From contig NZ_AP022598.1 in assembly GCF_010725485.1 (NCBI RefSeq), forward strand, positions 124,001-188,000: a stretch of 64,000 nucleotides of DNA, in the 5' to 3' direction. The position numbers and the translations under genes are program-made. Every line of letters starts with the position of its first letter. Position 1 is the stretch's first letter. This document shows positions 17,320 through 20,976 of this stretch, piece after piece. The notes beneath the pieces were generated by a model, which saw only the letters and a list, made by a program, of their open reading frames with translations, searched no databases and was not told where the DNA came from. Origin of the DNA: Mycolicibacterium parafortuitum (lineage in GTDB: Bacteria > Actinomycetota > Actinomycetes > Mycobacteriales > Mycobacteriaceae).

Positions 17320-18156
17320 ATGAGCACGTCATCCGAGCGTGCCGAACAGTTGCACCTGGTATCCCGTCTGCGATCGGCGTTCCCCGAACTGCCCGACGCC
17401 CCGACGGCGGACATGCTCGACCACCCGCGCATCAAGGCCTACCTCAAACCAGTCCACGACGTCGTCGGCGAACCGGACGCCCCGCTCAAGTACGAGAACA
17501 AGCAGTACGAGCAGTGGGAAGAACTGACGTACATCATGTGCGAGGTTCTGGGGGCGCGCGGCATCTGGATGTCCGAGGAACGCCGCCGGATCGGCAACGT
17601 CGACGTCGGACGTGCCCAGTATCTGGGGTTGCCGTACTACGCGCGGTGGCTGATCGCGGTGGCGCGGGTGCTGGTGGAAAAGCACCTCGTCACCTTGGGC
17701 GAAGTCAGCGAGCGGATGGCCGAGGTGCAGGCGCGCTACGCCGGCGGCCTGGACGGCAAGAAGCTCGAGGCGCAACCGAAATCGGTGGGAGACGGGTCGG
17801 GGGTTGCCCGCAATTCGCATCACACGCGGGCCCAGGGCATCGGCGATCCGCAGATCTATGCAGGTAAAGCCGGCGAGCCGGCCTTCGCCGTGGGCGACAG
17901 CGTCGTGGTCCGCGACATCCCGGTCATCTTCTACACGCGCACGCCGGAGTACGTCCGCGGCGCGACCGGACGCATCGCCACGGTGGCCTATGAAAGCCCT
18001 GCCGCCGAGGACGAGACGTGGGGCCTCACCGATGCCCCGGCGGAATGGTTCTACATCGTCGAGTTCGATATGCCGACGCTCTGGTACGGCTACACGGGAG
18101 CCCCCGAAGACAAGCTCCGGACCGAGATCCCGCAGCGCTGGCTCGCCCCCGCCTGA
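17320..18156 (+). CDS. thiocyanate hydrolase-like fused beta-alpha subunit
   Basis: 278 residues. Residues 40-150 match the thiocyanate hydrolase beta subunit (VHDVVGEPDAPLKYENKQYE, EERRRIGNVDVG with the paired Arg that contact the metal-site cysteines, LPYYARWLIAVARVL). Residues 165-278 match the alpha subunit (HHTRAQGIGDPQIYAGKAG, FAVGDSVVVRDIPVIFYTRT, VRGATGRI, YESPAAEDE). In Thiobacillus thioparus these are two proteins; here one gene carries both, as in the single beta subunit of nitrile hydratase. With the downstream gamma-like gene it should form a cobalt enzyme hydrolysing thiocyanate to carbonyl sulfide and ammonia. A nitrile hydratase acting on another substrate is the alternative. 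Confidence 0.8.
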   Translation: MSTSSERAEQLHLVSRLRSAFPELPDAPTADMLDHPRIKAYLKPVHDVVGEPDAPLKYENKQYEQWEELTYIMCEVLGARGIWMSEERRRIGNVDVGRAQYLGLPYYARWLIAVARVLVEKHLVTLGEVSERMAEVQARYAGGLDGKKLEAQPKSVGDGSGVARNSHHTRAQGIGDPQIYAGKAGEPAFAVGDSVVVRDIPVIFYTRTPEYVRGATGRIATVAYESPAAEDETWGLTDAPAEWFYIVEFDMPTLWYGYTGAPEDKLRTEIPQRWLAPA

Positions 18157-18189
18157 CTGAAACTTCCTGCTGCAGAAAGGGGTTCGACG

Positions 18190-18891
18190 ATGAGCCACCA
18201 CGATCATGACCATGACCATGACCGCACGGTGAAACCGATGGTCGACGAGATCACCGACTTCGAAGTTCTGGAGATCGCGCTGCGCGAACTGTGCATCGAG
18301 AAGGGCCTCTTCACCGCAGAGGACCACCGCCATTTCACGGAGTTCTCCGAACAGATCGGCCCCACACCGGCGGCGCGTCTGGTTGCGAGGTCCTGGCTGG
18401 ACCCCGATTTCAAGCAGTTGGCCCTGACCGACGCGCTGGCCGCCAGCAAGGAGGTCGGTGTGGACTGGCTGGAGCCCACGGGTTTCGGCACACCGAGCGA
18501 CTTCACGGCCTTCACGGTTCTCGAGGACACCCCGACGCTGCACAACGTCATCGTCTGCGGGCTGTGTTCGTGCTACCCGCGCCCCATCCTGGGCAACTCA
18601 CCGGAGTGGTACCGCACGCCCAATTATCGGCGGCGCCTCCCCCGGTGGCCGCGCGAGGTGCTCGCCGAGTTCGGCCTCTACCTACCCGCCGAAGTCGCTG
18701 TGCGGGTGGAGGATTCGAATCAGAAGCACCGGTTCATGGTGATGCCCATGCGACCGGAGGGTACCGACGGGTGGAGCGAGGACCAGCTCACCGAGATCCT
18801 CACCCGGGACTGCCTGATCGGCGTGGCGCTGCCGAAACCCGGCGTGACCTCCAACGTCATCACCGACACTCGCCCGGCCGTCCATCCGTAG
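18190..18891 (+). CDS. scnC: thiocyanate hydrolase gamma-like / nitrile hydratase alpha-like subunit
   Basis: 233 residues. The N-terminus MSHHDHDHDHD is a His/Asp metal-binding tail like that of ScnC of Thiobacillus. Residues 20-120 follow the ScnC pattern (FEVLEIALRELCIEKGLF, FGTPSDF). The metal site is VCGLCSC with Cys123, Cys126, Ser127 and Cys128; Cys126 and Cys128 would be oxidised to sulfinate and sulfenate around cobalt. The second site position is Gly where cobalt enzymes have Thr and iron enzymes Ser. The following YPRPILG, SPEWYRTPNYRRRL and MRPEGTDGW are thiocyanate-hydrolase-like. GAAAGGGG precedes the ATG. Second gene of the operon. Confidence 0.82.
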   Translation: MSHHDHDHDHDRTVKPMVDEITDFEVLEIALRELCIEKGLFTAEDHRHFTEFSEQIGPTPAARLVARSWLDPDFKQLALTDALAASKEVGVDWLEPTGFGTPSDFTAFTVLEDTPTLHNVIVCGLCSCYPRPILGNSPEWYRTPNYRRRLPRWPREVLAEFGLYLPAEVAVRVEDSNQKHRFMVMPMRPEGTDGWSEDQLTEILTRDCLIGVALPKPGVTSNVITDTRPAVHP

Positions 18892-18900
18892 GGAAACGCC

Positions 18901-19272
18901 ATGACCACCAGAGACCAATCGCCGTCGGTCGAGTCGGTCGAAAGCCCGACGCTGAACGCGATCGTCGAACGCAACCACGTCTGGCCCGTGATGGCGGCGA
19001 AGTACGGCGTCGAGAACCCGGTTCCGCCTTGGAAGACCAGCCTGGACGGGCTCTGCGACGCACTGGACCGCGCCACTTGCGAGGCCGATGTGCCCGACTT
19101 CAAGCGGCGCCGGGACGAAGAGGACCTACTGTCGGCGACACGCTATGCCGACCTCCCCTACCCGGAGAACCAACTGGTCGCGCTCGCGCACTCCCTGCTG
19201 GCGCGCGGAGTGATCAGCGAGGACGACCTGCGCCGCCGGATGGCCGGCATCCGCACCCGCCTGGAGGCGTGA
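18901..19272 (+). CDS. P15K-like thiocyanate hydrolase/nitrile hydratase activator
   Basis: 123 residues, nine bases after the gamma-like gene. It resembles the helical N-terminal domain of the beta subunit (LPYPENQLVALAHSLLARGV and a segment containing EDDLRRRMAGI), the fold shared by nitrile hydratase activators and the P15K protein encoded just after scnC in Thiobacillus. Such proteins load cobalt and help oxidise the active-site cysteines. Last gene of the operon; it converges with aroG 10 bases away. The activator role is inferred from order and fold. Confidence 0.68.
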   Translation: MTTRDQSPSVESVESPTLNAIVERNHVWPVMAAKYGVENPVPPWKTSLDGLCDALDRATCEADVPDFKRRRDEEDLLSATRYADLPYPENQLVALAHSLLARGVISEDDLRRRMAGIRTRLEA

Positions 19273-19282
19273 ACCCCGTCGC

Positions 19283-20362
19283 TCAGCCGCGCGTACCCGT
19301 GGTGCGGTCCCCGGCCGCGGCCGCGAGTTCCCGCAGCACCCGGTCCGTGGCGTCCCAGTCCATGCACTTGTCGGTGACCGACTGGCCGTAGGTGAGCGGA
19401 CGGGCCTCAGGGGCCTGTGCGCCACCGACGAGGAAGCTCTCCAGCATCACACCGCTGACCGGCAGCCCGTCACGCACCAGCTGGGCGACCTCGGCGCCGA
19501 CCTGGGCTTGGCGCAGGTGGTCCTTGCCGGAGTTGGCGTGGCTGCAGTCGATGACGACCCGTCCCGGCAGGCCCGCCTTGACGAGCTTGTCGGCGGTGCC
19601 GGCGACGGAGTCCGCGTCGCAGTTGGGTCCGTCGGTGCCACCGCGCAGGATCACGTGGCAGTCCTCGTTGCCGAGGGTGCTGACGAGGGCCCCGCGGCCG
19701 AGGTCGTTCATCCCGAAGAAGACGTGTGGCGCGGCCGCGGCCTTCACGCCGTCGACCGCCACCTGGATGTTGCCGTCGGTGCCGTTCTTGAAGCCGACGG
19801 GCATCGACAAGCCGGACGCGAGCTGGCGGTGCACCTGCGATTCCGTGGTGCGGGCACCGATGGCACCCCACGCGACGGCGTCGGCGATGTACTGCGGGCT
19901 GGTGGGCTCGAGGAACTCGCACCCGACCGGCAGGCCGATGTCGATGATGTCGAGCAGCAGTTGACGCGCGAGCCGCAGACCGCGGGCCACGTCGAACGTG
20001 CCGTCCATCCCGGGATCGTTGATCAGGCCTTTCCAGCCGATCGTGGTGCGCGGCTTCTCGAAGTACACCCGCATCACGATCTTGAGGCGGTCGCTGAGCT
20101 GATCGGCCACCTTGACGAGCCTGCTGGCGTAGTCGAGCGCGGCGGCCGGATCGTGCACGGAGCACGGGCCCACCACGACCAGCAGCCGGTCGTCGCGTCC
20201 GGCGAGGATGTCGGCGATCTCGTCGCGGTCGCGGGCCACCCGGTCGGCCCGGCGGGCGCCCAGCGGGAACTCGCTGAGCACGTCGTGCGGGCTGGGGATG
20301 TCGCTGAAGCGTAGGACGCGCCGGTCAGAGGTGTTCTGAGAGGCGATCTGCTCCATGTTCAC
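19283..20362 (-). CDS. aroG: 3-deoxy-7-phosphoheptulonate synthase, type I (AroG-like)
   Basis: Condenses phosphoenolpyruvate and erythrose 4-phosphate, the first shikimate-pathway step. 359 residues of the E. coli AroF/G/H type: VVGPCSVHDPAAALDYA, MRVYFEKPRTTIGWKG, INDPGMDGTFD, RTTESQVHRQLASGLSMPVG, DCSHANSGK, all lining the PEP and metal site. Slow-growing mycobacteria rely on an unrelated type II enzyme, so this may be an extra, differently regulated isozyme. GTG start with AGGAAAGG seven bases upstream. A leader peptide and attenuator-like hairpins precede it, indicating control by aromatic amino acid supply. Confidence 0.93.
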   Translation of the reverse strand: MNMEQIASQNTSDRRVLRFSDIPSPHDVLSEFPLGARRADRVARDRDEIADILAGRDDRLLVVVGPCSVHDPAAALDYASRLVKVADQLSDRLKIVMRVYFEKPRTTIGWKGLINDPGMDGTFDVARGLRLARQLLLDIIDIGLPVGCEFLEPTSPQYIADAVAWGAIGARTTESQVHRQLASGLSMPVGFKNGTDGNIQVAVDGVKAAAAPHVFFGMNDLGRGALVSTLGNEDCHVILRGGTDGPNCDADSVAGTADKLVKAGLPGRVVIDCSHANSGKDHLRQAQVGAEVAQLVRDGLPVSGVMLESFLVGGAQAPEARPLTYGQSVTDKCMDWDATDRVLRELAAAAGDRTTGTRG

Positions 20363-20410
20363 GGTGGTGCCTTTCCTGGTATGGGCACCTGGGTGATGGT
20401 CCGGCGCCCT

Positions 20411-20447
20411 TTAATGACGAAAGGCAGCGACCTGATGGTCACTGCCT
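20411..20447 (-). terminator. attenuator terminator hairpin before aroG
   Basis: On the minus strand AGGCAGTGACC (20447-20437) and GGTCGCTGCCT (20432-20422) form an 11-base stem with one G-U pair and a 4-base loop, followed by TTCGTCATT. It lies between the leader peptide stop and the aroG ribosome site, so it can stop transcription before the gene. Confidence 0.65.
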
Positions 20448-20468
20448 GGGCTCCGGGAGGATGCGTGC

Positions 20469-20540
20469 TTAACGCTGCGCTTTATCGGCTCCGCCCGGAG
20501 CCTCGATAAAGCGCCAGTAGTCGGCACGCTGGATGTTCAC
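20469..20540 (-). CDS. aroG leader peptide (Tyr-Trp-Phe rich)
   Basis: A 23-codon frame on the aroG strand, GTG start and TAA stop, reading MNIQRADYWRF at its start. TAC TGG CGC TTT encode Tyr-Trp-Arg-Phe, that is all three aromatic amino acids within four codons, directly at the base of the upstream hairpin. A TATACC box ends nine bases before the GTG, so the message is nearly leaderless, which suits a gene with no visible ribosome site. A ribosome stalled for lack of charged Tyr, Trp or Phe tRNA would open the first hairpin. This is the classic arrangement of amino acid attenuation. Confidence 0.72.
   Translation of the reverse strand: MNIQRADYWRFIEAPGGADKAQR
20477..20514 (-). promoter_or_regulatory. 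leader-peptide hairpin (region 1:2) of the aroG attenuator
   Basis: On the minus strand GCGCTTTATCG and CGATAAAGCGC pair perfectly (11 bases), with an inner GCTCCG/CGGAGC stem (6 bases), a 2-base bulge and 2-base loop. The left arm includes the Phe codon and lies just after Tyr-Trp. The segment GGCTCCGGG within it (20502-20494) can instead pair with CCCGGAGCC at 20457-20449, giving a mutually exclusive fold. Confidence 0.65.
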
Positions 20541-20549
20541 GTCGACGAG

Positions 20550-20577
20550 GGTATACCGGCTCCGTCGTGCGGGCAAA
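20550..20577 (-). promoter_or_regulatory. aroG leader promoter
   Basis: On the minus strand a -10 box TATACC (20555-20550) and a -35-like TTTGCC (20577-20572) are 16 bases apart. The leader peptide GTG follows nine bases after the -10. Confidence 0.55.
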
Positions 20578-20607
20578 CCGCTCGCTGCCGGGGGCCGGCA
20601 AACCGGG

Positions 20608-20976
20608 CTAAGGAACGCGCACCCAGGGTGCGCAATTCCGCGATTCGAAGGCCTTCACCGTCGAGTTGATGTTCGCGTACATCGGACCCATCGAGATGTT
20701 CGTCGAGACGACGTTGTCCTTGTTGGTGTCCGGGGTGCTGTAGGTGAACCACAGGCACATCGAATCCTGGGTCGGCACGTCGTTGATCCAGACACCGAAG
20801 ACCGATGCCGTCCCGTCCGTCCGGTAGAGCCCGGGGCTGATGTCCGGACCCACGAGGAAGAACCCGTTACCCGGAATCGGATCGATCGGGGCGGCGCCGG
20901 CCTGCGGCACGGGTGCACCCACAACCGCGACGGCGCACAGAGAAACAATTGCGTGACAGCGTCGCGATCCGGTCAT
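20608..20976 (-). CDS. small secreted protein of unknown function
   Basis: 122 residues with a clear signal peptide (hydrophobic residues 9-22, Ala-rich cleavage region near AGAAP). The mature part contains GNGFFLVGPDISPGLYRT, a motif frequent in secreted mycobacterial proteins whose members have two Cys (here SMCLWF and RNCAPW), probably forming a disulfide. No catalytic motif. Preceded in the same direction by another small exported protein. Function unknown. Confidence 0.7.
   Translation of the reverse strand: MTGSRRCHAIVSLCAVAVVGAPVPQAGAAPIDPIPGNGFFLVGPDISPGLYRTDGTASVFGVWINDVPTQDSMCLWFTYSTPDTNKDNVVSTNISMGPMYANINSTVKAFESRNCAPWVRVP

Follow-up and report, generated by a model that had tools for sequence, protein, structure and literature searches.

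The aroG leader region

The window, the whole 64,000-nucleotide stretch of Mycolicibacterium parafortuitum DNA that was analysed, carries on its minus strand a gene whose product matched TIGR00034 with 497.9 bits (cut-off 173.2), in agreement with the initial annotation of the gene as a type I aroG. Three open reading frames convergent to aroG (17320-19272, plus strand) resemble subunits of thiocyanate hydrolase or nitrile hydratase; the one at 18190-18891 matched thiocyanate hydrolase gamma with 386.8 bits (cut-off 291.45), and the other two matched nitrile hydratase beta below the cut-off. Just 5' of the aroG leader, on the same strand, a small protein with an Rv1352/Rv1906c domain is encoded (20608-20976, minus strand; 76.1 bits, cut-off 25). 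The features of the leader region and aroG are:

20548..20553, minus strand: -10-like box TACCCT, 7 nt 5' of the leader GTG
20469..20540, minus strand: leader open reading frame of 23 codons plus TAA, VNIQRADYWRFIEAPGGADKAQR, with a putative leaderless start
20508..20519, minus strand: control codons TAC TGG CGC TTT (Tyr-Trp-Arg-Phe)
20477..20514, minus strand: hairpin H1, pairing 20514-20505 with 20486-20477 and 20502-20497 with 20492-20487; sequesters S1
20490..20502, minus strand: strand S1, the 5' strand of the alternative helix AT
20448..20461, minus strand: strand S2, partner of S1 (AT) or S3 (helix D)
20422..20447, minus strand: hairpin T, terminator-like, 11 bp, loop ATCA; two-sided changes at 10 of 11 pairs in alignment A1
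20411..20421, minus strand: U-rich tail TTCGTCATTAA after T
20401..20409, minus strand: strand S3 (GGGCGCCGG); forms helix D with S2, enclosing T, or helix E with S4
20383..20389, minus strand: strand S4 (GGTGCCC); partner of S3 (E) or of S5 (helix F)
20366..20371, minus strand: strand S5 (GGCACC), overlaps the 3' end of the Shine-Dalgarno stretch GGAAAGG (20376-20370)
19283..20362, minus strand: aroG, start codon GTG, encoding a type I DAHP synthase of 359 aa (TIGR00034)

By inspection of the sequence, all parts that the initial annotation had claimed were located on the minus strand. The leader frame runs from GTG at 20540 to TAA at 20471-20469, and its codons for Tyr (TAC, 20519-20517), Trp (TGG, 20516-20514) and Phe (TTT, 20510-20508) lie over a hairpin as described there. 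The length of this hairpin, H1, had been given as 17 bp and was corrected by manual count to 16 pairs (10 and 6 bp with a 2-nt bulge). The 11-bp downstream hairpin is present at 20447-20422, and its tail TTCGTCATT is U-rich yet poor. The alternative 9-base pairing, GGCTCCGGG with CCCGGAGCC, was found at 20502-20494 with 20457-20449, within helix AT (20502-20490 with 20461-20449), which is mutually exclusive with H1. A box just before the leader start also occurs, but TACCCT (20553-20548) is a better reading of it than the TATACC first proposed.

The 201-nt leader of the window folded with -94 kcal/mol (z -6.33), an energy that none of 200 shuffled sequences reached. The minimum-energy fold comprises H1, T, helix D around T, and helix F (S4:S5) beside the aroG ribosome site. 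Scans of 20300-20700 returned no promoter-like site and, for the strict terminator search, no terminator. A search of the window with the Rfam covariance models yielded only a chance-level Rothia-sucC row (18.8 bits versus 64.5, E 2.4), and six relatives gave no match at gathering scores. A T-box or another known riboregulator was ruled out by the absent Rfam match.

Conservation of the leader frame and its aromatic codons

For comparison, 192 upstream regions were collected, of which the motif test retained 124 (123 unique). The losses were mostly the 46 non-actinobacterial members of a set of 80 named loci, and also included Rhodococcus/Nocardia-type rows as well as L178 and L180. A start codon was found by rule in 120 sequences and in none of L024, L145 and L160. 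For alignment A1, 19 of the 120 were set aside (Dietzia-like, group g3 and several Gordonia-like sequences, L041, L042, L045 and L073), and removal of near-identical rows reduced the remaining 101 to 77. Of these, 70 were aligned, leaving out seven Gordonia-like rows (L034, L148, L149, L151, L153, L154, L155).

An in-frame TANNNT-spacer-RTG arrangement was observed in 119 of the 120 sequences, with a spacer of 7 in 106; after shuffling the letters of each stretch once, TANNNT-spacer-start occurred in 5 of 120. This is the layout of a leaderless transcript, and transcription would thus start at or next to the leader GTG. Tyr-Trp-Arg-Phe is kept in 62 of the 70 aligned sequences, the other eight varying at Tyr, Trp or Arg, and TTT is kept in all 70. 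The distance from the Phe codon to S1 is 8 nt in 118 of 120 sequences, as in the window, where it was counted from the first base of TTT; that from the Trp codon is 14 nt in 110 and that from the Tyr codon 17 nt in 108. A distance of 8 nt roughly matches the mRNA entry point of the ribosome. Judging by this codon conservation, the leader appears to sense all three aromatic amino acids. Natural loss of one control codon was seen in L025, where Trp is replaced (Tyr-Arg-Arg-Phe), and in L142, where Tyr is replaced (His-Trp-Arg-Phe). In L027 an in-frame TAG stands two codons past Phe, at the edge of S1, and the remaining element is retained; the peptide past the control codons may be dispensable.

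Pairing support for two mutually exclusive structures

In alignment A1, whose choice of rows favours the pair counts, the set H1, D, T and F was paired in 93.9% of 2853 cells (slid controls 35–45%), and two-sided changes occurred in 80 cells, compared to 19.8 in shuffles, none of 500 of which reached 80. The alternative set AT, T and E was paired in 92.7% of 2082 cells (slid controls 39–51%), with two-sided changes in 56 cells compared to 13.7 in shuffles (0 of 500 reaching 56); these counts are subject to the caveats of the counting tool on related sequences. Most of the covariation is carried by T (10 of 11 pairs). AT hardly varies: 92.5% of its cells are paired, 6 of 12 pairs never vary and 3 of 12 show two-sided changes. 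Such changes were found at 2 of 16 pairs in H1, 0 of 8 in D, 1 of 7 in E and 2 of 6 in F, the last being paired in only 84.5% of cells. H1 and AT share S1, are both conserved and exclude each other in folding, and so constitute two mutually exclusive pairings.

The strength of E exceeded that of shuffled sequences (p≤0.05) in 72 of 119 sequences, L073 being too short for this test; that of F did so in 46 of the 119, namely in 36 of 46 near-mycobacterial sequences and in 10 of the 73 others. D and E are supported mainly by conservation and position. S3 is a conserved third strand that pairs around T, and it resembles a near-copy of the leader strand. Although pairing alone would permit change, much of the T sequence is retained as well: at least 90% of the aligned 70 have GCAG.GA.

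In the window AT ends 1 nt before T begins, and the spacing lies between -3 and +2 nt in 115 of the 120 sequences; the two overlap by 2–3 nt in 25 of 120, and not in the window. T covaries, but its tail is weak in the window, where the strict scan gave no site. The mean number of T residues in the 10 nt after the stem was 8.2 in Williamsia, 7.0 in groups g7/13/17/19 and Tsukamurella, 6.1 in near mycobacteria, 4.0 in groups g14/21/25/26 and 3.3 in Dietzia-like sequences. It was also considered whether an antiterminator might overlap T in its 3' arm, with GCAGCG of the H1 3' arm pairing with CGCTGC in the window; this was rejected, as by eye no such pairing was noticed in Tsukamurella and Dietzia sequences.

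Distribution of the element

The gene was found in 43 of the 118 genomes sampled for the genus and in 323 of the 401 sampled for the family. A covariance model built from 49 of the 70 aligned relatives matched 5' of aroG in all 43 congeneric genomes with the gene (weakest E 1.7e-19), 20 of which are among the model's 49 sequences and match by construction. Class-wide, the model matched 50 of 394 genomes and 18 of 137 genera at E≤0.01. Among the 80 named loci, which were chosen by AroG similarity and of which 34 are actinobacterial by manual count, all 28 rows at E≤1 fall in actinobacterial records. A forward-strand row 5' of the gene was obtained for 21 of these 34 loci and none for 13, while 0 of the 46 non-actinobacterial loci had a row. 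Genera with the element before aroG include Mycobacterium, Mycolicibacterium, Gordonia, Williamsia, Tsukamurella, Dietzia, Catellatospora, Glycomyces and others. No convincing second copy was found in the window's genome, the other four of five rows having E 0.17 or worse. A chance origin of the element was ruled out by pair conservation, presence upstream of aroG in relatives, promoter spacing and the folding z-score.

Elements before other genes

The downstream genes of 31 class-wide loci were examined. Nineteen loci precede a DAHP synthase like that of the window (60–65% identity), and seven of the remaining 12 were scanned for protein families. L227-L230 and L234 matched DAHP-synthase and chorismate-mutase families far below the cut-off, L238 matched chorismate mutase below the cut-off, and L237 matched tyrosine--tRNA ligase with 260 bits (cut-off 113.8). 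The leader codons are Phe in L227-L230 and L234 (in L227 also Tyr), Tyr and Phe in L238, and Tyr in L237. L237 and L247 are the same place in genome G824, where an element with one Tyr codon stands before a tyrosyl-tRNA synthetase gene; this single case (E 0.0056) could be a chance match, yet it shows S1, S2 and T as well as the promoter spacing.

In scans of two families, 8 of 24 genomes of one and 15 of 41 of the other had a match at E≤0.05. Of the 21 corresponding loci, L251 looks like chance and L252 is wrongly positioned; the other 19 carry aromatic codons before S1. Not all leaders hold three aromatic residues: L243 lacks Phe but has Trp and Tyr, and Phe is the only one in several leaders of family f19. 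At L225-L230, L232, L234 and L255-L263, an element with Phe codons precedes short DAHP-synthase/chorismate-mutase-like genes (family f19; L227 f22), the gene families being scanned for five of these loci and judged from the first residues in the others.

Predicted folding in different ribosome states

Folding was predicted with a mask that represents the RNA covered by a halted ribosome and begins at the first base of the A-site codon. For the window transcript cut at T, the probability of AT was 0.01 without a ribosome. With an 8-nt mask it was 1.00 at Tyr, Trp and Phe; with a 13-nt mask it was 1.00 at Tyr, 1.00 at Trp and 0.20 at Phe. A ribosome at the stop codon gave 1.00 (8 nt) or 0.90 (13 nt). 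In the full-length transcript of the window, a 15-nt mask resulted in 0.99 at Tyr, 0.94 at Trp, 0.01 at Phe, 0.31 at the stop codon and 0.00 without a ribosome, and an 8-nt mask in 0.28, 0.99 and 0.99 at Tyr, Trp and Phe. The predicted AT outcome is therefore dependent on mask size. T had a folding probability of 1.00 in the window in every ribosome state, with means of 0.95–1.00 over the relatives.

In the relatives, cut at T, AT exceeded 0.5 in 81 of 119 sequences without a ribosome, and there H1 would have to act kinetically. With the ribosome at Phe, AT exceeded 0.5 in 119 of 119 (8 nt) or 66 of 119 (13 nt) sequences; with both masks it did so in 110 of 117 at Trp and 116 of 116 at Tyr. 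At the stop codon the numbers were 114 of 118 (8 nt) and 108 of 118 (13 nt), in predictions by a program that ignores the bulk of the ribosome sitting inside the AT loop.

Comparison with known leader systems

An attenuator formed by aroR-aroF of Corynebacterium glutamicum was reportedly described by Neshat et al. in 2014 (J Biotechnol 190:55-63). Excerpts of two further papers present the attenuator of aroF with the Phe-Tyr-Phe leader aroR (PMC11802643, PMC4046766); according to those of the former, Phe limitation raises aroF transcription and Tyr availability is irrelevant (PMC11802643). An excerpt of a third paper terms the control by AroR translational (PMC7356990). As far as these excerpts go, aroR-aroF and the window both have a short leader with aromatic codons 5' of a type I DAHP synthase, and they differ in that the window has Tyr-Trp-Arg-Phe instead of Phe-Tyr-Phe. 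Our own comparison was made with the genomes of group g3, which we infer to be Corynebacterium, and not with C. glutamicum itself. All five g3 genomes (L177-L181) have Phe-Tyr-Phe leaders over the same layout, and the window element was therefore taken as probably homologous; AT and T were computed for L177, L179 and L181. A further difference from aroR-aroF is that in the window H1 is long and the strands of D, E and F are clear. A Trp codon is not peculiar to the window, as three of the five g3 leaders (L177, L179, L181) carry one just before Phe-Tyr-Phe.

At C. glutamicum ilvBNC, studied by mutation, the terminator and the antiterminator adjoin and overlap by one trinucleotide, according to the sections seen of PMC11857589. 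The descriptions of ilvBNC and the ilvB-II motif in such sections (PMC11857589, PMC10272879) resemble the window in having a uORF, an H1-like anti-antiterminator, and an antiterminator beside the terminator with minimal overlap. Unlike the window, they have branched-chain codons and another gene. The partly available account of the uORFC-13-1 motif before aroF of Acholeplasma likewise places a uORF before a DAHP synthase with a terminator, but phylum and structure are different and the residue named is Phe (PMC8632094). In mycobacteria, uORF attenuators are described in extracts on ilvB1 and cysteine (PMC13236596, PMC4633059), which act on other amino acids and genes than the window. The main text of PMC13236596 has no occurrence of 'aro', and among the open-licence papers listed we found no description of a mycobacterial aromatic attenuator. 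A 2005 survey states, in the part available, that no conserved RNA regulatory structures precede Phe/Tyr operons in Actinobacteria (PMC1262725); one conserved element before the first enzyme of the pathway contrasts with this negative result.

Proposed mechanism and alternative explanations

Judged by its sequence, the element is conserved, attenuator-like and very likely functional. It is of a known kind and varies it in that it would read three aromatic amino acids, has its antiterminator almost next to the terminator and contains the extra strand S3. We consider it probable that it works like a ribosome-mediated transcription attenuator and is apparently homologous to aroR-aroF of C. glutamicum; we write 'works like' and not 'is a member' since in the window AT and T lie 1 nt apart, compared to the 3-nt overlap in ilvBNC. 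The transcript would begin at or beside the leader GTG. With plentiful charged tRNA-Tyr, -Trp and -Phe, the ribosome would clear the leader, H1 would lock S1, and T would stop transcription before aroG. If any of the three were scarce, the ribosome would halt at the Tyr, Trp or Phe codon and cover the 5' arm of H1, and S1 would pair with S2, the conserved alternative that folding predicts. AT would then abut the base of T and hinder its last base pairs, as the precedent of the adjoining hairpins of ilvBNC suggests, and RNA polymerase would read into aroG. How AT defeats T is the more conjectural step, since T is predicted in all ribosome states.

This reading is supported by the codon conservation, the presence of the element before aroG in 43 of 43 genomes, the covariation of T, the conservation and folding of AT, the fitting codons at tyrS and chorismate-mutase-like genes, and the precedents of C. 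glutamicum aroF and ilvBNC. Against it stand the lacking AT/T overlap, T in all states, the weak tail, the mask dependence, AT formed already without a ribosome in 81 of 119 sequences, and the word translational for AroR in the excerpt of PMC7356990. AT at the stop codon also counts against it, as no AT is expected with plentiful amino acids. The initial annotation had spoken of a complete attenuation layout. The parts are there, but 'complete' is too strong: AT excludes H1 and does not overlap T in the window, T folds in every ribosome state, and the conserved strands S3 and S4 were missing from the earlier list. A lack of conservation of the codons and hairpins in relatives had been named beforehand as refuting; the idea survived this test.

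Control could instead be translational or mixed, with a chain S1:S2, S2:S3, S3:S4, S4:S5 that is flipped by a stall and frees the Shine-Dalgarno region of aroG, T being mainly a spacer. The minimum-energy fold of the window with H1, T, D and F agrees with such a chain, as do the support for E in 72 and for F in 46 of 119 sequences (36 near-mycobacterial), the retention of D where the tail of T is poor, and the wording on AroR in PMC7356990, as excerpted. With stalls placed at fixed distances from S1 (8, 14 and 17 nt), a Trp stall in the window switched D from 1.00 to 0.01, E from 0.00 to 0.97 and F from 1.00 to 0.03. However, the unpaired fraction from the Shine-Dalgarno stretch to the start rose only from 0.45 to 0.49, and that of the Shine-Dalgarno stretch itself fell from 0.78 to 0.59. 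The mean change in opening was 0.03 in 45 near relatives (up in 15) and 0.015 in 73 others (up in 29). For F, the near relatives gave 0.75 in the absence of a ribosome, 0.60 with one at the Phe position, 0.73 at Trp and 0.77 at Tyr, and only 10 of the 73 others support this helix. Since the start region of aroG opens hardly any further, a translational cascade has little support; we downgraded it as the main mechanism after this folding and regard it as unlikely.

We hold it for very improbable that AT is the off state, and that a ribosome halted at Phe covers S1, prevents AT and raises aroG expression. A 15-nt mask at Phe does lower AT to a mean of 0.04, ribosomes at Tyr, Trp or the stop codon favour AT, and in 81 of 119 sequences AT is above 0.5 even when no ribosome is present, but the conserved Tyr and Trp codons would be left without a task and there is no reason for a free S2 to defeat T. 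The chances are slimmer still that the leader exerts no starvation control and is a conserved peptide or RNA with another role, for example regulator binding or mRNA stability. Nucleotide conservation goes beyond codon needs, and we found no expression test for these species among the open-licence papers listed; yet the codons suit the downstream gene (Tyr before tyrS in one case, Phe before chorismate-mutase-like genes), and the similar layout of C. glutamicum responds to Phe as excerpted from PMC11802643.

If the element works as an attenuator as proposed, a single leader would sense Tyr, Trp and Phe, which would be useful for tuning aromatic production, and it would make testable how a helix merely abutting a terminator prevents termination. 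The switch recurs in many actinobacteria and would extend one known from Corynebacterium. A wider reading is tentative and, on balance, doubtful. It holds that the element represents a widespread actinobacterial family outside Rfam in which a leaderless uORF reads three aromatic amino acids and the antiterminator abuts the terminator. S3, the near-copy of the leader strand 3' of the terminator, would relay the decision so that one stall sets both transcription and translation, and the module would have moved to tyrS and chorismate-mutase-like genes with adapted codons.

Divergent leaders and a second DAHP synthase

By eye, a divergent version of the element was seen in Rhodococcus, Nocardia and Antrihabitans (L056, L059, L064, L071, L083, L085, L090). 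Its leaders have Tyr-Phe-Trp-Phe, or Tyr-Trp-Phe in L083, the hairpin after the leader lacks a U tail, and close to the ribosome site there is a stretch resembling the 3' arm of the leader hairpin. The mechanism of this version may differ. The genome of the window also encodes a type II DAHP synthase at G000:C1:3721548-3722846 (L242; PF01474, 636.3 bits), and the attenuated copy may therefore be the adjustable one.
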